NCBI GenBank assembly: GCA_009887095.1
Contig: QXYC01000031.1
Coordinates: 1-64,000 of the forward strand
Direction: 5' to 3'
From: Candidatus Poseidoniales archaeon
Lineage (GTDB): Archaea > Thermoplasmatota > Poseidoniia > Poseidoniales > Poseidoniaceae
DNA length: 64,000 bases
A program made the position numbers and the translations under genes. Under the pieces are notes generated by a model. The model worked only from the letters and a program-made list of their open reading frames with translations. It did no database searches and had not been told where the DNA came from. Position 1 is the first letter of the stretch. Each line of letters starts with the position of its first letter. Shown here piece after piece: positions 2,532 through 17,826 of the stretch.

Positions 2532-4511
2532 ATGGAAACTGTTCTCATTATGTCTGGCCTTTTGGTCGCAATTCTTCTCACCACCGCAAATTACCTTGTG
2601 AAAGGCATTGGTGGCATGAGTGCTCCTCTGCAACAAGTTGGACTCTTTTTGCTTAACAAAGCCCCAGCAGGCATCATCGATCTGTTCAGCGACGAAGCAG
2701 GTAGCGGCAGCAAAACATGGATTCGCTTTGGAATGGTTTGGTTCCTCCTTGCATCAATCGGGGCCTTCCTCGGACTCTGGCACAGCTACGACGGGGGTGC
2801 CTTGGATTCCCTTGCAAGCATTGGCTGGTCATATGACGATGGCTCAATGCTTACGGATTACACAAATGTCTTCTTCAACACAGCGCTCAACTACATGCTT
2901 GTTGGTGGCGCCTTGGTGGCTGTATCTCGCACGGCACAAGGACGTCTTGCCAGTGAAAAGAGCGCATCAATGGTGGCACTTTTGCTCACCGCATCAACCG
3001 CTGCGTACTTGGTTCTCCCAGCAATTCTTTCCTTTGCTACCCTCGACAATGAGGCTGCATTGATTGAAAACATCACAAATGTGTCTTCCCTTGTTGTTGG
3101 TTCTCTGCTCCATGCAGCGATTCTCATCAACGTTCTCATCACTGTGGCCAACCGTGCATCGGACAACATCGCTCCAACCACCTGGTTCCTCGTGCTTGCC
3201 TTGGTTGCCAAAATCTTCGCAGGCTTGATGGCCTTCTTCGGTGAACTAGCAGATTCCACACAAACGGTTTGGATGGCTGAACACGTGCTCACCGGATGGG
3301 TCCCATTGGCTCTCATCTTCGGATTGGCTTACCATGTTATTCCATACACCACCGGATCACCAATTTGGTCTGAAAGCATGCTAAAGGTCAACATGGCTCT
3401 TCTGTTTGTGACGGTTCCACCGTTCTTCATGACCGCAGCAACGAGCGCTGAGTTGTTGCAAAACTTAGGCGCTATTCTCCTCACCCTTGGCATGCTGCCA
3501 CTCTTTGCAGGTTCAATCAACCTGCTCGTGACTGCCAAGTCCAATGCGGCTGCAGTGGTCAAGAGTCCCGGTGCTTTCGCTGCAACCGGCGCTATGCTCT
3601 TCATCCCAATCTACACCATTGGCGGTTACTTCACAAGCATGGATGTCTTTGTCGGCCTCGGCAACCTTGGCACCATGGCTTCCACCGTCGATCAAGGCTT
3701 CATGTACACCGTTGGTGGACTGATGATGCTCGCAAGCGTCTTCACGGCCTATCCGTTGGCAAGCGGGAAGCAACTTGCGAATGCCTCGAACGCACAACTC
3801 GCAGTTTGGCTCACAATGATTGGCGGCCTCACCTCGACCATCGTTCGCCTGATGGGTGATTTCACCTCACAAGCCGTGCTCGACTCAGGTGTTGAAGAAG
3901 CAGTGGCCTCGACAGGCGGCTTCCTTCTCGTCTCTTCTGCCTTGTACTACCTGTGCGCAATTGCAGCCATCATGGCGGCGTTGGTGATGATTCGCACCGG
4001 AACCCGCGGCAATGCAGACGCTGTTGCCACAGGCGCAACCAGTGACATCAGCACCTACTCCTTGGTTGAAGGCTCCACAACCATTCGCACCCTCATCAGT
4101 CGCGGCGTCGGAATCGATACCGAACTCAAGGTTGGTCACACGGAGGATGAATCTGGCGCCACCATCATTGCCGTGAGTGCTCACCTTCACAACGATGAGG
4201 TCACAGAGTTCCCAGATGATGCAAAGGAAACGCCTGAAGAACTGGTCATGCTCGCAGATTACCTCTCTCAATCAAACCAGTCCATCTTCCAGTTCTTCCA
4301 ATCCATTGACTTGGACAACTCCGGCACCGTTGACGGTTTCGAATTCCAAAGAGCCCTCAAGAACGCAGACATTGCGAACCTCCCCCCATGGGAAATGGGA
4401 GCCTTGCTCGAAGCAGTCGACCTTGACGGTGATGGGAAGATCAACCTGCCTGAACTCGACATCGCGTTGACGATGATTCGAAGCAAGCAATCCTCGAACG
4501 AGGAAGAGTGA
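2532..4511 (+). CDS. CcoN-like (heme-copper oxidase subunit I fold) membrane protein lacking metal ligands, with C-terminal EF-hand pair
   Basis: A 659-residue polytopic membrane protein with about 12 hydrophobic segments to residue ~490, then a soluble tail. Several stretches read like cbb3-oxidase CcoN: DYTNVFFNTALNYML...VSRTAQGRLA (residues 109-140) where CcoN has the low-spin heme His in HTN; AEHVLTGW...LAYHVIPYTTGSPIWS (249-280) matching the helix with the first CuB His; and TLGMLPLFAGSINLL (318-332). The heme His is Tyr110, the His-His pair region reads PPFF (296-299), and no HxH is seen in the later helix; only His251 is kept. Two canonical EF-hands follow: DLDNSGTVDGFE (593-604) and DLDGDGKINLPE (630-641). 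Homology is inferred from motif alignment by eye. Electron transfer looks impossible, so a calcium-responsive or structural membrane role is more likely. Confidence 0.7.
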   Translation: METVLIMSGLLVAILLTTANYLVKGIGGMSAPLQQVGLFLLNKAPAGIIDLFSDEAGSGSKTWIRFGMVWFLLASIGAFLGLWHSYDGGALDSLASIGWSYDDGSMLTDYTNVFFNTALNYMLVGGALVAVSRTAQGRLASEKSASMVALLLTASTAAYLVLPAILSFATLDNEAALIENITNVSSLVVGSLLHAAILINVLITVANRASDNIAPTTWFLVLALVAKIFAGLMAFFGELADSTQTVWMAEHVLTGWVPLALIFGLAYHVIPYTTGSPIWSESMLKVNMALLFVTVPPFFMTAATSAELLQNLGAILLTLGMLPLFAGSINLLVTAKSNAAAVVKSPGAFAATGAMLFIPIYTIGGYFTSMDVFVGLGNLGTMASTVDQGFMYTVGGLMMLASVFTAYPLASGKQLANASNAQLAVWLTMIGGLTSTIVRLMGDFTSQAVLDSGVEEAVASTGGFLLVSSALYYLCAIAAIMAALVMIRTGTRGNADAVATGATSDISTYSLVEGSTTIRTLISRGVGIDTELKVGHTEDESGATIIAVSAHLHNDEVTEFPDDAKETPEELVMLADYLSQSNQSIFQFFQSIDLDNSGTVDGFEFQRALKNADIANLPPWEMGALLEAVDLDGDGKINLPELDIALTMIRSKQSSNEEE

Positions 4512-4524
4512 ATCCACCGAGGGC

Positions 4525-5817
4525 GTGAACAAGGTGCGTATCGGCCTTGTCGGCAAACCAAACGTAGGCAAATCGACCTTTTTCAGTGCTGCAACCTTGG
4601 CCAAGGTTGACATTGCCAACTATCCATTTTGTACGATTGAACCAAACGTTGGTGTCGCCTTTGTCGCTGCTCGCTTGCCCTGTCCGTGTAAGGACATACG
4701 AGCGAAGCTCGAACAAGAAGGGCGCATCGAACCAGTCTCTCAGGACGACCCACGCAGAGGAAGTTTATGCGAGCCGAGAACTGGTTCGTGCATTGGCCAC
4801 ATGCGCCTCGTTCCTTGCTTCTTGGTGGACATTGCAGGTCTCGTTCCAGGTGCAAGCGAAGGGCGGGGCAGGGGAAATGCATTCCTTGCCGACCTCGCAA
4901 ACTGCAACGCTCTGATTCAGGTTGTTGATGCTGCAGGAAGCACTGATTTGGAAGGCAATCCACAAGGGCACAATCAAACCACAGAGGTGGCACGTGCTCG
5001 CGTCATTGAAGAGATTGAATTCCTAGGCTTGGAACTCGATGCTTGGATTACAGGCCTACTGATGGACGGATGGGTACGAGGTGTTCGGCGCGTCCAAGCG
5101 GAAGGCGACAAGGGACTCATCTCGTTCATTCATGAACGCCTTACGGGGCTCGGAGCAACCTTGCAATCCGTTGGACTTGCCTATGAAGCGTTCCGCTCAG
5201 AACACACAACGCTTGGGTCACCATGGGACTGGGATCTCTCAATCATAGCCTCACTTGCCGTGCACTTGCGCAAGGCGTTGTTCCCAATTCATATTGCAGC
5301 GAACAAATTTGATGTTGCACCGGCAGAAGTATTGGACGGCGTGGTTGCAAATGGCTGCATTATTCCTTGCATGGCTGATGTTGAACTCGGTCTGCGCCGG
5401 GCTGCAGGAGCCGATCTCATTGAGTACACCCCTGGCTCAACCTCCTTCTCATTCAGTGATTCAAATGCGCTCAATGAAGCCCAACTGAAGGCGCTTGCTC
5501 ACATGAAGGAGCGGCTTGAAGCAAATGCCGGCACTGGGGTGGCGACCATGCTTGACACAGTTCTGTTTGATGAATTAGAACACATTGTGGTCTATCCTGT
5601 GCAAGACGAGAACCGATGGACAGACGGGGATGGAAAAGTTCTGCCCGATGCGTTCGTTGTACCTGCTGCCATACAAGCCAAAGCATTGGCATACAAAGTT
5701 CACAGCGACCTCGGTGATGGATTCATTCGTGGTGTCGATGGTCGAAGCCGAAGGGTTGTCGGTGCAGACCACGAACTCCAGGATGGAGATGTGTTGAAGA
5801 TTCACGCTAAATCGTGA
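4525..5817 (+). CDS. OBG/YchF-type GTPase with C-terminal TGS domain
   Basis: TRAFAC-class GTPase of the archaeal YchF-related family, probably ribosome-associated. Visible motifs are G1 GKPNVGKST near the N-terminus, the switch I region ANYPFCTIEPN, G3 DIAGLVPGA, G4 NKFD, and a C-terminal TGS domain (VYPVQDEN ... HELQDGDVLKIH). The cysteine-rich RLPCPCKD after the G2 region is usual in archaeal members. A GTG at 4525 opens the frame, and a second in-frame GTG at 4534 would give a tighter N-terminus (VRIGLVGKPN). The GAGGG at 4519-4523 is better spaced for the second. It starts 13 bases after the CcoN-like gene and may share its transcript. Confidence 0.88.
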   Translation: MNKVRIGLVGKPNVGKSTFFSAATLAKVDIANYPFCTIEPNVGVAFVAARLPCPCKDIRAKLEQEGRIEPVSQDDPRRGSLCEPRTGSCIGHMRLVPCFLVDIAGLVPGASEGRGRGNAFLADLANCNALIQVVDAAGSTDLEGNPQGHNQTTEVARARVIEEIEFLGLELDAWITGLLMDGWVRGVRRVQAEGDKGLISFIHERLTGLGATLQSVGLAYEAFRSEHTTLGSPWDWDLSIIASLAVHLRKALFPIHIAANKFDVAPAEVLDGVVANGCIIPCMADVELGLRRAAGADLIEYTPGSTSFSFSDSNALNEAQLKALAHMKERLEANAGTGVATMLDTVLFDELEHIVVYPVQDENRWTDGDGKVLPDAFVVPAAIQAKALAYKVHSDLGDGFIRGVDGRSRRVVGADHELQDGDVLKIHAKS

Positions 5818-8463: not shown

Positions 8464-9243
8464 TTAGGCCCCCACATCACTCCATGCGTTCTTGTTTTCA
8501 TAGTGTTGGGTTAGCAAACTTTGACATTTTCTTGCAAAACCGTGATTTGTGCCCATCTGTTCGCCATCGATGGATTCGATTTGTGCAACTCCAAGCCCGC
8601 TTCCTACAGCAATCACTTCAATCGCTCGTGCAACCAATCGTTCGTTCAACCGCCCGCGTTGCACAGGAATGCCCTGTGCTTCGAGAAGAGGTACGAGAAT
8701 TTCTGCTGTAATGCCGGCGACGCCTCCATCCGAAGCGTTCGACAACCACGCCGTGCTGTCTTCATCAAACACGATTGGGGTGGCCCGGTCGCCGTCGACA
8801 ATGGCGAACTCATGGACAAGCAGGGCCAAGTCAGTTCCAGCATGATCTGCTTGTTTCATTGCGTCATGGTAAGGCTGCCAATCTCCATGTTTCGTTCCGT
8901 TTACTTTTGGTGACCAGCGAGGCGCTTGAACCGTGATTGCTTCGACGCTTTCATTCCGAATTGAGAAGGGGCGCGGCCGTACATCGATTGCACCATCACG
9001 GGCCAATTCCAATCGAAGAAGCCCCTTTGGTTGGCAAGTGGGATGTCGATCATTGAATTCGAGCGTAGCAACGGCTTCTGTGATCAATCGTTTTATGTCC
9101 GTTGGCCACTGAATCCGCAGTCGTTTGGCGTGAAGTTCCATGCGCTCAAGGTGTGCATCAAGGTCGGCAATGCACCCTGCTTGATCCCAAACCATCGTGG
9201 TGAAGACCAAATCACGAGGACTTGCGTCGACACCTTCAGACAT
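8464..9243 (-). CDS. pabC: aminodeoxychorismate lyase-like class IV aminotransferase
   Basis: PLP enzyme of fold type IV, likely releasing p-aminobenzoate and pyruvate from aminodeoxychorismate. Seen are the PLP-lysine region NGTKHGDW, the following YHDAMKQA helix, and the phosphate-binding stretch WLSNASDGGVAGITAEILVPLL. The frame can open at a TTG at 9249; the ATG at 9243 (MSEGVDASPR) is preferred and gives 259 residues. The gene lies 26 bases upstream of the pabBA fusion, which supports the Pab assignment over branched-chain or D-amino-acid transaminases of the same family. It starts 9 bases after the stop of the giant surface protein gene, so read-through from that gene is possible. Confidence 0.8.
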   Translation of the reverse strand: MSEGVDASPRDLVFTTMVWDQAGCIADLDAHLERMELHAKRLRIQWPTDIKRLITEAVATLEFNDRHPTCQPKGLLRLELARDGAIDVRPRPFSIRNESVEAITVQAPRWSPKVNGTKHGDWQPYHDAMKQADHAGTDLALLVHEFAIVDGDRATPIVFDEDSTAWLSNASDGGVAGITAEILVPLLEAQGIPVQRGRLNERLVARAIEVIAVGSGLGVAQIESIDGEQMGTNHGFARKCQSLLTQHYENKNAWSDVGA

Positions 9244-9252
9244 TGTCAACCC

Positions 9253-12200
9253 TCAGAGCAAGTCATCGAGGAACGAGGTGTCAATGGCTTTGGTTTGCTG
9301 TGGTGGAGCAGTTCCAACACCTAATTCGTTGAGCAACTCATTGCTCTGAACCGGTTGCATCACCGGCTGTGCAGGTTGGTAGGCTGGACGCCCATACATG
9401 TCCTGTTGCGTGGCTGGTTGAGCATACATGTTCGAGGCAGGTGGTGTTGGTGCCGCTGCTGTTGGTGGTGGTGAAGTTGGTGGGGCGGCTACAGCAGGTG
9501 CATCGTTCCAGCTTTGGTCATCTTGCAATCCCCATGTGGCTTCTTGGAGTTCCCACGACTTTGCCTTTCGTTGTTGGCTGCCTCTTGTTCGCACCACGGC
9601 GATGAAGAGGAAGATGGCCATGATGAAAAGTCCAGCAGCCAAGAGGTTGGGCGTGGTCAAGAGTGATGAGAAATCAGTTCCATCGTTTGCATTATCTTCG
9701 CCCGGTGTTGTACCATCATTCGCTTGGAAAGCCCCCAGTTGAATTGGGTTGACCGCTTCCTTGCTCACGAGTTCGTCAAACGGCGTGACTGCGATGTACC
9801 ACGATGTAGCGTTGGTCAGCGCTGCGAATTGATCCACCGTGATGATGAATGAGTTCGAGGCGATTTCATCGCCCACCATTGTTGCGCTCGAGATTGCATC
9901 AAAGTTCTCCTCAGCGATGTACACTTGGTAGCCTTGGACGCGCTGGTCGGTTGATGGCGACCATTCAACGAGGATTTTGCTTTCCTCGATCCACGTGGCA
10001 CTGATGCCAGAAACCTCAGGCAGGTACGAGCCTGAAGCATCGTAGCCATCATCGATGGATTGGGAGGACACAGCGGTCAAGTCGGTTGTGAATGCGTTTC
10101 CAGAGGTGTCACGAACCACCACAACGGCCCAGATCTCTTGACCGGGGATCACCGGAGTGTCGCCAGCCACGATGTCGATTGTGAGCGGGAGTTCAGGGGC
10201 TCGTTCGAGCGTTGCAATCGGTGTGCTTGGGCCGAGTGTTCCTTGTCCTACGCTTGTGAATGACCAGGTGGCAGCATAAACTTCGTACGAGCCAACGTCA
10301 CTTGCGGAACTTAACTCAAAGTCCAGCAAGAGCGCGCTTCCGTCATCGAGCGCTCGGTCGGTGAGGCTCAAGACTTCAAGACGGTCAGGGGCAGTGGTGT
10401 CGAGGGCGTTATCGATCGGTGTCACTGTGGCCTGTGTAAGGTCGGTAAGGAACACGTTTCCTGCCAAGTCATGAACGGTGACAACAACATACAGTTCTAC
10501 ATCCGGTTGAATCGGTTGAGGTGTACTTTGAGTGAGGTCCATAAGTCCACCAGAACCACTGTACAACGCCGTTGTTAATGTGACTTCAAGCGGACTGAAT
10601 GATTCGTCAACCCATTGCTTGTTGACTTTCAGGCAACCACATCGAGTTGGGTCATCGCCAAACAAAGCCCATGCCACTGAGAGGTCGGTGAGCGGTTGGT
10701 CGGCTGCCCAAATTGTGTAGTGTGAGAAATCATCAGCATCAGAAACAGACCACAAGACATCAATGGAGGTTCCGTCATCGTTTGGATGATCAAATGCTTG
10801 AACAAACTCGGTTCTGTCAGGAGGTGTTGGTTGGCCGTTTTGGTTGCGGAGGGGGGTCACTTGCACGAGGTCCACATCGTCCAGATTTGCGTTCAGCCAA
10901 TCATCGTACGCAACCACGCCAACGAGGTAGGTTTGTCCGTTTTGGAGCCCTTCGCCGTCGATGCTCGTGACCAAGGTCGAACGTTCATCGCAATCGTTGA
11001 TGATCTTCGCTTGAGTAAAGCCAGTATCTGGATTTACACTGGAGGAAGTTCCGTCAAAGTCCGGTTGGATATTTTCACCGTCTTCTACGGCCCTCATGAA
11101 GATGGCATAGAACGTGCAATCTTCTGCAGGGTTGACGTCCCATGAAACAGTGATGCGTCCACCGTCATCTTCGGGCGTGTCGATGGCGTTGACATTTTCC
11201 ATTTTTGGAGGGGCTGTGTTGTCATTCAAGCCGCCAGTTGGGACAAAGGGTCCAACGATGAGGGCGTTCATGATGTCTTCTTGTCCTGCTTCGTCAACAC
11301 AGGTGAGTCCAAGCCAGTACGGTTGACCGGGTGAAAGCGAAAGTACGGTTGAGTTTCCTTCCATCTTCATAACTTCCCCTTCAGGCGTGAGGCCGAGAAC
11401 GTCTGTCATTGGTTGGGTCGAGGCGTAAATGTTCGTTTGCAGAAGATCGAGGCTTGTGCAGCGAGCCCATTCCACGTCCAGATCACCATCTTCGCCTCCT
11501 TCGTGAGGGCCTGCCTCAGCCCAGATTGGTGCCAACGGCACTTCGTCAGACGGGGTTGCAGGTCCAAGCACAGGCGAAGGAGTGCCGAGGCGTCCATCGT
11601 CGTATTCAACGACCACTACAGCGTAGTAATCGTTTCCATCAACGAGCGGTTGACCGTTGGAAGTGGTAACTTCGCTCGACAGTCGGCTGTGCAGAGAGAT
11701 GGCTTTGTCGATGGTTCGAGTTTGTAGGAATGTGGTGGTGATTCCTCCGTCGAGCGACCAAACAGGCCCATCGTTGACGTAGACGAGGTAGCGAGCGAAG
11801 TCATCATCGTGAACAAGGCTCCATGCTGCGGTCAAAGCTCCGCCGCCATCATCGGGTCGGTCAACCAGTTCAGTCAATGCAATCGGGGTTTCAGTCTTGA
11901 CATAGTCGTAGATGAGGCGAACATGCATCGACCCATTGCTTGGTGAGCGGAGGTTCAATTGAACAAATTGCGTTCCATTGATGATGATTCCATTGTCGAC
12001 AGCGAGTTGCATGGTTGTTTCGAAGTCTGGATTGTTGTTGAGTTCAATCGTAGCGTTGTACTTCATGCTCACAGATTTCGCCCACGTCGCTGCGTTGCTC
12101 ACTGGTGAGGTGAATGCGAGAGGAACCGTTTGGAACATGATGCCATTTGTCCCGACAACACCGAGGGTTGGGTCGAGTGCTGCCGTGTTGGATAGGTTCG

Positions 12201-15200
12201 CAAGAACGATTGGCATGCCGGGGTGAGTCATGTCGCTGATGTCGGTAAATCCACCGTTGAAACCGACGTTGAGAGGGCTTGCTTTGCGCAATGAGAACCG
12301 ATCTAACGCAGCATACTGGGCGTTGTTTTCGAAGCCAAAGAGGCCAATGTCGCCGGTCGTCAGCCAAATTGCATCAGACGTGATGGTCCCGCCTGTCAAT
12401 CCGGTCTCTTGGAACATCTTCAGGGTAGCATGAGTTGGCGTGCGAGCGCTCAGGATTGAGGCTCCATTCTCACCAATGGTAAGGACATGATCGCCATCGC
12501 TGACCATCTTCTGGATTGGCCATCCCGCTACTTGGAAGGAAGGGACTCCATCTTCGAATTGATTCGATTGTCCGTTGTAATGCGTCATTGGACCGATGTC
12601 CGTTGCAATGTGCAAGCCCCACCAGTCAGCTGCCAAAGCATCAACAGTGTTCGATGATAATTGGTCGAACTTATGCCAAGAGACAGCGTTCGAGGATGTA
12701 TCGACGCTGGTGACGCCCGGGCGTTCAGAACCTGCGCCATCATGGCCGATGAAGAGGGAAGTGGATGTTGTAGATGTGCCGTTGACAACAGTGGTTGTGC
12801 TTGCGGTGGTCAAGGATTGTGCAGAGGTGGCCATGAGACCTGTGCCGCTTGAATAGAGCGTGGTCGCATTGGTTAACGTGTCCATCTTGACAACACCAGC
12901 GGTTGTAGCGATCCAAAGATCGGTTCCGATGAACTGTACATCTTCGACCACATTGGTCGGCAATCCATCGCTTGTTGTGAGCGGGTTTGCCCAGTCTGAT
13001 AGGGCGTAGTCCCAGCGTCCAATTCCACCATCGGTTGCGATGTAAAGCATGGTTGAGGATTCAGTGAATGCATTGATGCTGTTCGAGGGGAGGCCACCAA
13101 GCAATCGACCGCTTCCGAAGCCTGTGCTTGGGTCGTACACTTGGACGCCAGCAGCTGAGCCGGAACTTCCTTGCAAGCCGATGACCAAACTCGAGCCGTA
13201 AACGAAGAGCCCGTCCATGTTGTTGTGTAATGCACCGCTGATTCGACTCAAGACACCGGTGAGGGTATCCAGTTTGTAGAGCCCAGTCGGTGTTGTCGTG
13301 ATGTAAAGATCCGTGCCAACAAGCTCCATGTCCTTGGCCACGGTGTTGGCAACCATCGTCCATCCCTGCTGCCAATCGATTGTCCCATCAGATTGGCGTT
13401 CGCCCTGAAGCAATCCAGCGCCTGCTGAACCACCTTGTCCAAACCCTTGGGCTGCGCCTTGAGTTGAAATCCATAGATGCGTGCCATTGCCTGCCATGCT
13501 GGTGACCTGGCCGCTGACAAGTCCGGGGAAGTCAAGCAATGTGTTTTGTCCCAACGAACTGATTGTATCGACGTGGCTGTATCCGGATGAACCGCCCGCT
13601 TGCCCAATCAACCATTCATTGGTCAGCCATTGGAAGGAAGTGACCGAAGACCCTTGTCCGTTGAAGGAGACTTGCGCAGTGGAGCCTCCTGATGTTGCAA
13701 CTGCGCTGTAGCCTCCGCCGATGATGTTGTCACCGCTCGTACCGATGCCGTGGCCCAGCACAAGCATGCTGTTGGAATAGTCAATAGCGTCCCACCACAC
13801 ACGATCGCTTGGCAAGTTGTGGTTTGCTGTGGTGATTGGGTTAAGCCAGGTGTTGGAAGCATAACTGTACTTTTTGACATCTGCTTGGTCTTCATAGAAG
13901 GCCACATAGAGGGTGTCTGTGCCGTCACAAGCGACGCCGGATACCTCGGCATAATTTTCGTTCCAGTCTGCCCCTCGGAAGGTGCTCAAGAAGGAATCAT
14001 TGGCCATATCAAATCGGGCCACGCCTCCATTGTTGGCGTAAATACCGATGTGGACGATGCCGGCACACTCCGTCATTGTAATTGGGTAACCATTGGGCAC
14101 TCCGTTGGTCCCAGTTTCGTAATTGGTCCATGTCGTACCGTCCCAATGGGAGATTGCGCCATTTCTGAACTGACCAAACTGACTCACTTCGCCGCTACCA
14201 ACGATCAGGCTTGTTCCATCGGTCCATAATTCGTAGATTTGGTCGCCAGCATCACTGGGCAAGCCCGATCCAGGAGTCCACTCTGTCAACCATTGGCCCG
14301 CAGATTCGTTGTAACGTGCGACGCCGTCTTCGGTAGCAAACATCACTTCACCGTTGTATTCGACAATCTCACGGATTGGGAAATTGAAATCTCCATCGTC
14401 CCATTCTCCAAGTACAGTGCCGTTTGCAGCCATGTACTGAAGGGAGTTTTCGCCCCATGATACCCACATGTTTCCAGTAGAGGATTTGTACGCAGTCACT
14501 CGATCGACTTGGCCGATTGGGAGGATGTTATCGCCCCATGAATTGTTGCTGGTGTTCCATTGAGCGATGCCACCGGATCCATCAACTTGCCACCAATTTT
14601 GAGATGCCACGCTGATCATAATGATGTCACCAATGATGCTCATTCCATTCACATCGCCGTTGTTCTGACCCACTTGTGCGCCAACGTCAAGAGCAGGAAG
14701 GGAGGTGAAATTCTGGGCGTCAAACCGATACAGGTTATCGCTGCTGGCACCGTCATGATAGTACATGATGTTGCCTTTGAGAATCATGTCAAGTGGGTCG
14801 CCGTTTCCAGCAAACAGGCTGCTTGATTTTTCAATATCATACACTTCATTTCCGGTGGTGGCATTGAGCAACTGGAACCCATCAGAACCACCGACCCAAA
14901 TGTAATTTGGATTGATGTCGACTGAAAGCGCGGTTGCATCTTCATTCCCATCATCGAGCACATTGTCGTCGGTCCAAAGGCTGAGCCATTCATCGTTGGT
15001 GAGGTCATATCGGGCGATGCCAATGCCATCGAGTGCGATGAAAGCCACATCACCAACGACGGTTACAGGCGCGTTGTTTGTTTGCTCACCAGCCGTCCAT
15101 TCACCGACCACATCAAAGGGTGAAATCGTGATGATTCCAACCCCTGAATTTGTTCCTCCAAACAGGTATGTGTTTGAAATTCCAGCACCGATCGAATAGG

Positions 15201-17613
15201 TCGCCCAGTTCGGCATGCCGTCGTACACGTTGAGGCACTCATCGATGTCGACGGTTGAGGTTGGGAATTTGCACACACCAATGTTGGTCGCAGCATATAC
15301 ATTTGAACCTACGACGACGAAATCAAAGAATTGCTGTGGACGCTCATTCCATTGCCTTCCTATCTGGAAAGTGGTCGCCGTCGAGGAAGATACATCCCAT
15401 TCAATGGCGCCTTGGTTGGTTCCGATGTAGAGCACACTTGTGCCGGCTTCAAGGGCGTAAATGGTTGAGCTTGGGAGGACAGAAGTTGAGGAACCGGCTC
15501 CCGGGTTGTTGCTGACAGTGGTCAATGGGAGGAGAATTTCGTTTGTGGCGAGGTCCTTACGGGCCACACCGTAGCCTGGAATTCCAAAGTACAACACATC
15601 GCCTACTACAGCCACGGGGACATCGTTGGCACCGTTGACACCAGTGGAAATCCACGGGGTGAGCCAAGCATCAGTTGCTATGTCATAGCGGAGCAAACCG
15701 TCATTTTGGGTACCAACATATGCCACTTCGTTGTGAATTGCGGCATCGGTCACCGAACCCGTTGAGAGGATGAGTGACTCGAAGACGAGGGGTTGCGCTC
15801 CTGTGAGATTAACTGCTGCGAATTCACCGTAAAATTGGTTGAGGATCACGACGGTCGAGCCATCAGATTGGACGACGGTAACTTCGTTACTCGACATTGG
15901 GGTGTTGGATGTGTCCCAAGTTTGCAACACTGTGCCGTTGCTGTGCATTTGATGGGCGCCGTTTGCGGCTGCGATGTACACATGGTTGCCATCAGTGCTT
16001 AGACGTGCAATGTCTGCTCCAATAAACACCGGCTCAATCCAGCGCGAAGTTTGGGTATCAAATCTGTTGAGGTATTGGTCATCAGTAGCAACAAACAAAA
16101 CGCCGTTCAACTCCGTTGAGTCAATCATTTGACCAGACGTTGGTCCGCTCCCGAGCAGCAGCACGCCTGTGTTGAGGGGTGAAGAGCCGGGACTCAATTC
16201 AACAAGCGCTCCACCGCCATCGCTGACCAGGATTAATTCAGAAGGTGGTGCGCGTGCACCGTTGCTTGGCCACAGCAGGAGGCCTTGTCCATCGTTGGCT
16301 AAGCCGAAGGCGTCAAGGGTTTGAGAGCCTGAAAAAACATTGCTTGCTGCGTTGTAGGTGTGCAAAGAATCGCCGTTGAGGATGTACAGCGTGTTGCCAG
16401 ACCTTGCGAGGCCAGACACATCATCACTGGCCAACCAGTTTCCACTGTTCCATGTTGAAAGCCAGAAACCAGAACTCCAGTCATATCGAGCAAGACCGGC
16501 ATCCGGGGATGCCATGAGAAGTTGATTTCCAGAAATCATTAGCTGGTGGACTTCGTCAGAGTGAAGACTGTTGGCGGTGGACCATACAGAAAGCATCTGT
16601 CCCGAGGCAAGATCGTACCGTGCTACACCAGCGTCGTCCATTGAAATGTAAAGAATTCCGTTTACTTCTAACATGTCCAAGCATGCACCGCTTGTGCCAC
16701 CGACGTTGACCCATGCACCTCCGTTCCAAAGGACGAGTTCATCCGCATTTGCGGCATAAACATCTCCAGTGCTTGCTATGACGAATTGATGGAGTTCCTC
16801 AAACGCAGCATCCGACGCATCTGGGAGCACGGTCTGTGTGCTTGAGTCTGTGAGCGAAACGGCGAAGAAACCGTCCTCTTCAGTGAGGAAATGAATCAAG
16901 TTGTTTGCCACATCGATTTCCATATCCACGACATTGCTTTCGAATGGGATCATGTCGATGATTGGCGGATCGTTGTTGTAATCCAAAACGAGGACATCAT
17001 CGAGAATAGCGATGTACATTCGAGCGTCATCAGGGTGGAGTGCATGAGCGCTGATGTCGAGGTCAATCGGCTCAAAGGAGACCGCAGGATCGACGGGGGC
17101 AAGCGCTTCGATCACCAACTCGGTGATTTCAGCATCTGAGGGGAGGGTCCATGTGGCGCCAGAATCACTGTTTGGTGAAAGCCTTCCTTCGTGAGGGTTG
17201 GTTCCTTCAAACGAGTCGGCTGCACCAAGGGTTCCAAGTCCTCGCCAATCGAGCAAATTGATGCCGATGTCATTTGCAACAAGCATCGGCTCTTCGATCA
17301 TCAAGCCGTCGCTTCCGTCGACTCGAATCTGGAACGACACGTTTGAGATGTCGGCCCCCGGTGCGAATTCCAATGTCCAGTCGGCAGTTGCTTGACCCCC
17401 TGTCACTGGGTCTGCGCCCGTTGCGTCCAATTGCACCCAACCCGTGTCATTGCTCCCCGATTTTGGCCAAATCGTGTCGTTGAATGATTCATGCGCTGAA
17501 ACGCCGGGTACCATCATCATCGGGGCGATGGATGAACAGAGCATCAAAGCGACCAACAGAGCGGCTCTTTTGCCGGCGGAACCGGGAGAAAATAGAGCAT
17601 GGGCTGGCTTCAT
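9253..17613 (-). CDS. giant secreted, membrane-anchored beta-propeller/FnIII surface protein
   Basis: About 2786 residues, by far the largest gene here. The N-terminus is a signal peptide (KRAALLVALMLCSSIAPMMMVPGVSA). Residues ~60-1750 hold many propeller blades with a recurring pattern of G-V/I-A-R-Y-D ... W-L-x-x-W and LPS/TN-x-V ... LWIATTAGV, resembling two-component-regulator propeller repeats. About six FnIII-like modules follow (~1900-2600), each opening near a DDGG/DDGT loop. A single transmembrane helix lies near 2650 (LLAAGLFIMAIFLFIAVV), then a Pro/Ala/Gln-rich cytoplasmic tail ending in DTSFLDDLL. A TTG at 17667 extends the frame by 18 residues, but the ATG at 17613 gives a normal signal peptide. 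Probably an adhesin or substrate-capture protein; the ligand is unknown. Confidence 0.85.
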   Translation of the reverse strand: MKPAHALFSPGSAGKRAALLVALMLCSSIAPMMMVPGVSAHESFNDTIWPKSGSNDTGWVQLDATGADPVTGGQATADWTLEFAPGADISNVSFQIRVDGSDGLMIEEPMLVANDIGINLLDWRGLGTLGAADSFEGTNPHEGRLSPNSDSGATWTLPSDAEITELVIEALAPVDPAVSFEPIDLDISAHALHPDDARMYIAILDDVLVLDYNNDPPIIDMIPFESNVVDMEIDVANNLIHFLTEEDGFFAVSLTDSSTQTVLPDASDAAFEELHQFVIASTGDVYAANADELVLWNGGAWVNVGGTSGACLDMLEVNGILYISMDDAGVARYDLASGQMLSVWSTANSLHSDEVHQLMISGNQLLMASPDAGLARYDWSSGFWLSTWNSGNWLASDDVSGLARSGNTLYILNGDSLHTYNAASNVFSGSQTLDAFGLANDGQGLLLWPSNGARAPPSELILVSDGGGALVELSPGSSPLNTGVLLLGSGPTSGQMIDSTELNGVLFVATDDQYLNRFDTQTSRWIEPVFIGADIARLSTDGNHVYIAAANGAHQMHSNGTVLQTWDTSNTPMSSNEVTVVQSDGSTVVILNQFYGEFAAVNLTGAQPLVFESLILSTGSVTDAAIHNEVAYVGTQNDGLLRYDIATDAWLTPWISTGVNGANDVPVAVVGDVLYFGIPGYGVARKDLATNEILLPLTTVSNNPGAGSSTSVLPSSTIYALEAGTSVLYIGTNQGAIEWDVSSSTATTFQIGRQWNERPQQFFDFVVVGSNVYAATNIGVCKFPTSTVDIDECLNVYDGMPNWATYSIGAGISNTYLFGGTNSGVGIITISPFDVVGEWTAGEQTNNAPVTVVGDVAFIALDGIGIARYDLTNDEWLSLWTDDNVLDDGNEDATALSVDINPNYIWVGGSDGFQLLNATTGNEVYDIEKSSSLFAGNGDPLDMILKGNIMYYHDGASSDNLYRFDAQNFTSLPALDVGAQVGQNNGDVNGMSIIGDIIMISVASQNWWQVDGSGGIAQWNTSNNSWGDNILPIGQVDRVTAYKSSTGNMWVSWGENSLQYMAANGTVLGEWDDGDFNFPIREIVEYNGEVMFATEDGVARYNESAGQWLTEWTPGSGLPSDAGDQIYELWTDGTSLIVGSGEVSQFGQFRNGAISHWDGTTWTNYETGTNGVPNGYPITMTECAGIVHIGIYANNGGVARFDMANDSFLSTFRGADWNENYAEVSGVACDGTDTLYVAFYEDQADVKKYSYASNTWLNPITTANHNLPSDRVWWDAIDYSNSMLVLGHGIGTSGDNIIGGGYSAVATSGGSTAQVSFNGQGSSVTSFQWLTNEWLIGQAGGSSGYSHVDTISSLGQNTLLDFPGLVSGQVTSMAGNGTHLWISTQGAAQGFGQGGSAGAGLLQGERQSDGTIDWQQGWTMVANTVAKDMELVGTDLYITTTPTGLYKLDTLTGVLSRISGALHNNMDGLFVYGSSLVIGLQGSSGSAAGVQVYDPSTGFGSGRLLGGLPSNSINAFTESSTMLYIATDGGIGRWDYALSDWANPLTTSDGLPTNVVEDVQFIGTDLWIATTAGVVKMDTLTNATTLYSSGTGLMATSAQSLTTASTTTVVNGTSTTSTSLFIGHDGAGSERPGVTSVDTSSNAVSWHKFDQLSSNTVDALAADWWGLHIATDIGPMTHYNGQSNQFEDGVPSFQVAGWPIQKMVSDGDHVLTIGENGASILSARTPTHATLKMFQETGLTGGTITSDAIWLTTGDIGLFGFENNAQYAALDRFSLRKASPLNVGFNGGFTDISDMTHPGMPIVLANLSNTAALDPTLGVVGTNGIMFQTVPLAFTSPVSNAATWAKSVSMKYNATIELNNNPDFETTMQLAVDNGIIINGTQFVQLNLRSPSNGSMHVRLIYDYVKTETPIALTELVDRPDDGGGALTAAWSLVHDDDFARYLVYVNDGPVWSLDGGITTTFLQTRTIDKAISLHSRLSSEVTTSNGQPLVDGNDYYAVVVVEYDDGRLGTPSPVLGPATPSDEVPLAPIWAEAGPHEGGEDGDLDVEWARCTSLDLLQTNIYASTQPMTDVLGLTPEGEVMKMEGNSTVLSLSPGQPYWLGLTCVDEAGQEDIMNALIVGPFVPTGGLNDNTAPPKMENVNAIDTPEDDGGRITVSWDVNPAEDCTFYAIFMRAVEDGENIQPDFDGTSSSVNPDTGFTQAKIINDCDERSTLVTSIDGEGLQNGQTYLVGVVAYDDWLNANLDDVDLVQVTPLRNQNGQPTPPDRTEFVQAFDHPNDDGTSIDVLWSVSDADDFSHYTIWAADQPLTDLSVAWALFGDDPTRCGCLKVNKQWVDESFSPLEVTLTTALYSGSGGLMDLTQSTPQPIQPDVELYVVVTVHDLAGNVFLTDLTQATVTPIDNALDTTAPDRLEVLSLTDRALDDGSALLLDFELSSASDVGSYEVYAATWSFTSVGQGTLGPSTPIATLERAPELPLTIDIVAGDTPVIPGQEIWAVVVVRDTSGNAFTTDLTAVSSQSIDDGYDASGSYLPEVSGISATWIEESKILVEWSPSTDQRVQGYQVYIAEENFDAISSATMVGDEIASNSFIITVDQFAALTNATSWYIAVTPFDELVSKEAVNPIQLGAFQANDGTTPGEDNANDGTDFSSLLTTPNLLAAGLFIMAIFLFIAVVRTRGSQQRKAKSWELQEATWGLQDDQSWNDAPAVAAPPTSPPPTAAAPTPPASNMYAQPATQQDMYGRPAYQPAQPVMQPVQSNELLNELGVGTAPPQQTKAIDTSFLDDLL

Positions 17614-17826
17614 GTTGTAAAGGGGTCTTTTGGGGTATTTGAACGCGGCCCTTGCTCGTGCGCACAAGTATCGTAGTAAAACCGCTCAAAATCAACAAAA
17701 TGAGCAAGAAAAATACGGTTTCAAAGCATCGATGGTGATGCTACACAGCCCTTCTTTTCCTCACCGTTTGTCCCGTACACACACAACACTCAAACCCAGA
17801 ACCACATTCGTTGGATTCGATTGCCT

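Follow-up and report, generated by a model that had tools for sequence, protein, structure and literature searches.

Subunit I of the heme-copper oxidases is defined by its histidine ligands. The C-type (cbb3) subunit, CcoN, requires six of them for heme b, heme b3, and CuB, which we take to be His60, His207, His257, His258, His345, and His347, and NorB likewise requires His ligands. Halobacterial fam02696 is an uncharacterized, distant homologue of subunit I that emerged from profile comparison, and PMC9258230 describes it as colocalizing with oxidase or NorB genes. Judged by that description only, it resembles the family reported here in being an unannotated archaeal subunit I homologue and differs in having oxidase or NorB genes reported beside it. 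Opsin-like proteins without the retinal lysine, a large branch of a cofactor-binding membrane family that lacks the cofactor site (PMC4915679), offer a precedent for cofactor-site loss, but in an unrelated protein family. A search of the open-access literature, with most subscription journals outside its scope, found no published account of a ligand-less CcoN-like protein; nor did that literature yield a described heme-copper branch that lacks all His ligands yet is under strong selection.

The stretch of DNA analyzed here (the window) comprises 64,000 nucleotides of a Poseidoniaceae (Marine Group II) genome; coordinates refer to its + strand unless stated otherwise. At positions 2532–4511, as a preliminary description had reported, it encodes a 659-amino acid protein. 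From the reading frame, homology, and structural models, we describe it as a CcoN-like, ligand-less heme-copper oxidase homologue with a C-terminal EF-hand pair. An additional N-terminal transmembrane (TM) helix (residues 2–24; 2535–2603), seen in the AlphaFold model and in hydropathy, precedes a 12-TM oxidase core (residues 58–491; 2703–4004), which was delimited by the AlphaFold model, a Foldseek match to CcoN 8smr_E, and an hhalign alignment of residues 60–490. Between the core and the EF-hand module lies a small segment on the cytoplasmic side, with two strands predicted at low model confidence (residues 505–535; 4044–4136). Elsewhere in the family, a C-terminal SAP domain occurs in 13 of the 37 CcoN-like members of alignment A1 (e.g., L076, L079, and L098), with or without EF-hands, and L098 also contains helix-hairpin-helix motifs. 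Both are domains of the nucleic-acid-binding type, here carried by a membrane protein.

Searched as a single sequence against Pfam, NCBIfam, and PDB, the 659-residue protein retrieved EF-hand families only, with no COX1 match; a match to XopAW was an EF-hand match far below its cutoff and was set aside. Because calmodulins swamped the full-length family profile, the TM core was cut out for profile searches. COX1 (PF00115) was matched by 5 of 37 aligned members, the best being L076 (7.8e-11, above the curated cutoff). A profile of 30 TM cores retrieved exactly three sequences from PDB, all of them cbb3 CcoN (3mk7; E 2e-9 to 6e-8), and a profile built from divergent members alone (alignment A3) found no oxidase there. 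Aligned by hhalign to a profile of eight C-type subunits, the family profile scored 99% probability (E 6.6e-18) over 408 columns. The reversed control reached 0.1%, the column-shuffled control ~0, and shuffled 30-column blocks 8–71%, with E never better than 4e-5. Single C-type sequences gave E-values from 1e-5 to 2e-10, with the exception of L153, a frame with a long unrelated prefix, and the corresponding values were 0.067 for the cell's own A-type COX1 and 0.3 for ATP synthase subunit I. No NorB profile match was obtained, the C-type match being the stronger, and the resemblance, as judged from profiles, is C-type specific. Sixteen structural columns are common to CcoN and this family: W70, R133, T204, R208, W218, G255, P271, P277, S280, P323, N330, T334, G375, P408, W426, and G431. 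This significant profile similarity places the family by descent within subunit I of the heme-copper oxidase superfamily and bears out the earlier proposal that the protein aligns with cbb3 oxidase subunit I.

Structure prediction gave the same assignment. An AlphaFold2 model of the window protein, computed with 37 aligned sequences, had a pLDDT of 79.5 and a pTM of 0.71, and Foldseek ranked cbb3 CcoN first (8smr_E, TM-score 0.77 by target), followed by NorB and then other oxidases. A second model, computed from another alignment for an EF-hand-free member from Thalassarchaeaceae, returned the same ranking with better E-values (4.7e-12). Across both models, the TM-score to cbb3 CcoN was 0.71–0.77, and the top PDB matches were all oxidase subunit I or NorB, so that each predicted structure has the 12-helix oxidase core with CcoN as its best match. 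The family thus shares with cbb3 CcoN (PDB 3mk7, 8smr, and 6xkw) the core, the profile match, and the conserved structural residues, and it shares its fold with NorB (PDB 3o0r and 4xyd), which is among the next-best structural matches. In contrast to cbb3 CcoN, the family lacks the conserved six His ligands and the catalytic Tyr, and the window protein adds the N-terminal helix and the C-terminal EF-hands.

Ligand positions were mapped by hhalign and counted over 95 distinct members. The low-spin heme b ligand His60 corresponds to Tyr110 (2859–2861), where no member has His (0/95). The CuB pair His257–His258 falls on Phe298–Phe299 of a PPFF motif (3423–3428), again with His in 0/95, and the CuB ligand His207 on His251 (3282–3284). 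The HxH ligands of heme b3 and heme b (His345 and His347) map to about Val386–Gln388 (3687–3695), with His in 0/95 members at position 386 and in 8/95 at position 388; the alignment is gapped near Val386, which makes this register less certain than the other ligand positions. The His-cross-linked catalytic Tyr (CcoN Tyr251) is replaced by Phe292 (3405–3407), with Phe in 79 members. The assignments to Tyr110, Phe298–Phe299, and His251 are exactly those first proposed. The statement that His251 alone remains holds for the window protein and not for the family, in which this position is His in 21 of 95 members and most commonly Arg (41/95). None of the six ligand positions is conserved as His across the 95 members, and several carry bulky hydrophobic residues instead. 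The family therefore lacks what characterizes a functional CcoN: the His ligands, the cross-linked catalytic Tyr, and an operon with ccoO and ccoP. At the level of sequence, the designation of a redox-dead oxidase paralogue is well supported, and the pattern, as read from these alignments, is that the scaffold has been retained and the cofactor site has gone. Taking sequence and predicted structure together, we consider it very probable that the protein is a CcoN derivative that has lost its ligands. We take S240, Y251, and Y317 to be K-pathway positions of CcoN; they correspond to Leu284, Phe292, and Thr368. A retained proton path is mostly unsupported, since most of the K-pathway polar positions are replaced.

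The whole protein was matched in 145 of 146 genomes of the order Poseidoniales, a few of which (e.g., G020) may match by the EF-hand module alone. An independent search with the TM-core profile hit 166 of the 193 class genomes, none of the MGIII genomes listed being among them, and in a wider sample of the phylum scores outside Poseidoniales were trivial throughout (E 8e-4 at best, over 75 residues). Restriction to one order, together with C-type specificity, leads us to infer from the sequences a loss of ligands once present, not a primary absence. Values of dN/dS were ~0.05–0.1 in both core and tail (that of L004, which is out of frame, was left out), indicating a gene in use; these codon comparisons show strong purifying selection.

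Gene order around this locus is fixed across testable loci. Immediately upstream, in 82 of 82 distinct loci, lies m93 (2247–2519), encoding a predicted 2-TM orphan protein of ~90 amino acids with aligned EPxSSR and GGSGIWYYLxG motifs and no relative in Pfam or PDB; the ORF listing begins at GTG 2238, and relatives begin at ATG 2247. A Shine-Dalgarno-like sequence, AGGAGGTG (2518–2525), overlaps the m93 stop codon and ends 6 bases before the ATG of the CcoN-like gene, an arrangement that suggests translational coupling of the two. Farther upstream is the archaeosine radical SAM gene RaSEA (970–2139; TIGR01210, 4.3e-86), on the same strand in 62/62 testable loci, and downstream a YGR210/Obg-like GTPase gene (4525–5817; PF08438, 5.6e-23), likewise on the same strand in 70/70. 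The 2-TM orphan thus stands where cbb3 CcoN would have ccoO/ccoP, and no ccoO/ccoP, cytochrome c, or CuA partner gene adjoins the CcoN-like gene at testable loci. Genes of the working A-type oxidase (COX1 with COX2 and COX3) sit elsewhere in the genome; with A-type COX1 present in 92 of 97 Poseidoniales genomes, the host does not need the CcoN-like protein as its oxidase. Some genomes (e.g., G013, G046, G049, G063, G065, G067, and G085) encode a second, shorter COX1 (~720–760 amino acids) beside the usual form. Also in the window, on the − strand (9253–17667), is a gene for a 2,804-amino acid protein that appears to be secreted or anchored in the membrane; its many repeats resemble, by eye only, beta-propeller and fibronectin-type segments.

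The EF-hand pair module (residues 569–657; 4236–4502) contains two canonical 12-residue loops, DLDNSGTVDGFE (residues 593–604; 4308–4343) and DLDGDGKINLPE (residues 630–641; 4419–4454), at the positions originally assigned to them and with Pfam support (EF-hand_1, 7.8e-9; EF-hand_1, _5, _6, and _7 all above cutoff). The helix-loop-helix pair belongs to the EF-hand family and is comparable with calmodulin-like pairs (PF13499), from which it differs in being fused to a 13-TM membrane protein and in having relatives built into other Poseidoniales proteins (AtpI, NuoL, and a NuoJ-like protein). Loops bearing Lys/Arg lie on the C-terminal side of the core, and by this positive-inside count, the module is predicted to be cytoplasmic. 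Of 71 long members, 65 have both canonical loops; of 21 shorter ones, none does. A survey of homologues accordingly finds EF-hands in the long members from Poseidoniaceae and not in the shorter ones from Thalassarchaeaceae, which retain the core. The core is equally universal in the family without EF-hands, so Ca2+ binding would be a lineage-specific addition rather than the founding function, and Ca2+ is not essential to what the core does. The suggestion that the protein had been turned into a Ca2+ sensor was therefore half right: the EF-hands are there, and a founding role for Ca2+ is contradicted by the sequence survey.

Related EF-hand modules appear on ATP synthase and on complex I. In the genus of the window, one is inserted in subunit I (AtpI) of the A-type ATP synthase, which we verified in one closed genome, where AtpI with its EF-hand pair (L167:8980–11385) belongs to a complete ATP synthase operon (8980–17523). 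The insertion sits in the N-terminal half of AtpI. The window's own assembly holds two different AtpI-EF copies on 2.7-kb contigs (L095:412–2760 and L096:372–2717), either paralogues or strain variants. In a second Poseidoniaceae genus, NuoL of complex I bears the same kind of insert (L184:985–3561, L185:1321–3894, L186:1107–3677, and L188:893–3478). In two further genera, the module ends a protein of 191–222 amino acids encoded between nuoI and nuoL (L189:2251–2847, L190:6718–7386, and L191:6005–6580) and weakly similar to the C-terminal half of NuoJ; in one of these genera, NuoL has an EF pair of its own. In L189 and L190, the NuoL adjoining the NuoJ-like protein has an EF-hand-like insertion. 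At E 1e-8, the module was detected in some host protein in 76 of 142 Poseidoniales genomes. A tree of EF-hands, in which four rows labelled ATPI are really NuoL, mostly groups the modules by host protein; it has few columns and weak deep support, for which reason we drew no origin of the module from it. The genome of the window also encodes unrelated proteins with EF-hands, which renders the shared module only suggestive. On contig C16 of this genome (L138:85–1977), a 630-amino acid protein combines two EF-hand pairs with Cys motifs of zinc-ribbon-like type, hydrophobic segments, and linkers that are very acidic. Calcium-binding domains were noted among Poseidoniales-specific families in PMC9258230, the available excerpts of which do not mention the CcoN-like, AtpI, or NuoL/NuoJ cases.

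The best explanation as a whole, to which we assign a probability of roughly 0.5, is a catalytically dead derivative of cbb3 subunit I that serves as a non-redox membrane subunit, with Ca2+ control added later. In this view, the cofactor-free 12-helix core and the m93 protein would together constitute a membrane subunit, structural or regulatory, that is connected with the respiratory chain or with ATP synthase. The EF-hand pair of Poseidoniaceae, facing the cytoplasm, would confer Ca2+ responsiveness on this role; it would be one instance of a module that these archaea also carry on ATP synthase subunit I and on NuoL/NuoJ of complex I. We hold these parts with different confidence. That the role is a bioenergetic one, structural or regulatory, is tentative and has slightly less than an even chance; descent, universality, and the shared module provide the link to energetics, and the neighboring RaSEA and GTPase genes, which are housekeeping rather than respiratory, count against it. 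For Ca2+ regulation of that role in Poseidoniaceae, we would put the odds at even. A bolder version, which we think improbable, is that the oxidase scaffold was converted at the root of Poseidoniales into a cofactor-free ion conductor or supercomplex hub and forms, with ATP synthase and complex I, a Ca2+-controlled energetics system in which one EF-hand module extends over all three. If true, this version would amount to an archaeal respiratory apparatus under calcium regulation.

Other readings draw on the same observations. Pseudoenzyme homologues often adopt assembly roles, and a chaperone-like pseudo-subunit assisting assembly of the A-type oxidase, NADH dehydrogenase, or ATP synthase would fit both the order-wide co-occurrence with those three complexes and the EF-hand module common to AtpI and NuoL/NuoJ. 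The CcoN-like gene, however, lies outside all operons of these complexes and resembles a C-type subunit I, whereas the cell uses an A-type, leaving an assembly factor unlikely. Retention of heme or another cofactor through non-canonical ligands, with a role in electron transfer, might be read from His residues that are common though not universal (H84 in 69/95 members and H268 in 62/95). We judge it very unlikely. The 95 members share no conserved His, Cys, or internal Met; substitutions, several of them bulky hydrophobic residues, occupy the six ligand columns and the catalytic Tyr position; and the adjacent genes include no cytochrome c or CuA partner.

Also doubtful is a transport function, as an ion channel or exchanger or as a small-molecule transporter, that would use a retained polar route (e.g., for H+ or Na+) and be Ca2+-gated in Poseidoniaceae; it could even link H+-pumping respiration to the inferred Na+-driven ATP synthase. 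Such a function would suit a 12-TM protein that is universal and has invariant polar positions within or close to its helices (N200, T204, S280, T294, N330, and T334), and it would suit an order whose ATP synthase was inferred to be Na+-type, a result called surprising given the incomplete Rnf complex (Tully 2019, PMC6336850), and from which the Mrp antiporter is reported absent (PMC9258230). Against it stand the loss of most K-pathway positions, a deep core with no invariant acidic or basic residue, and no match to any transporter family. An artifact, whether a decaying pseudogene or hydrophobic helices that look alike by chance, would account for the failure of the single sequence alone to match COX1. 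Its probability is negligible: it is refuted by family-level statistics with reversed and shuffled controls, by two models, by strong purifying selection, and by intact frames in nearly all genomes.

Nearly all sampled genomes of an order of archaea abundant in the surface ocean thus carry a ligand-less branch of CcoN, and because it is also under selection, some second use of the oxidase scaffold, outside redox chemistry, must exist. Calcium control of energy metabolism is known mainly from mitochondria; the related modules with EF-hands that close relatives carry on ATP synthase and complex I provide a testable case for such control in archaea.
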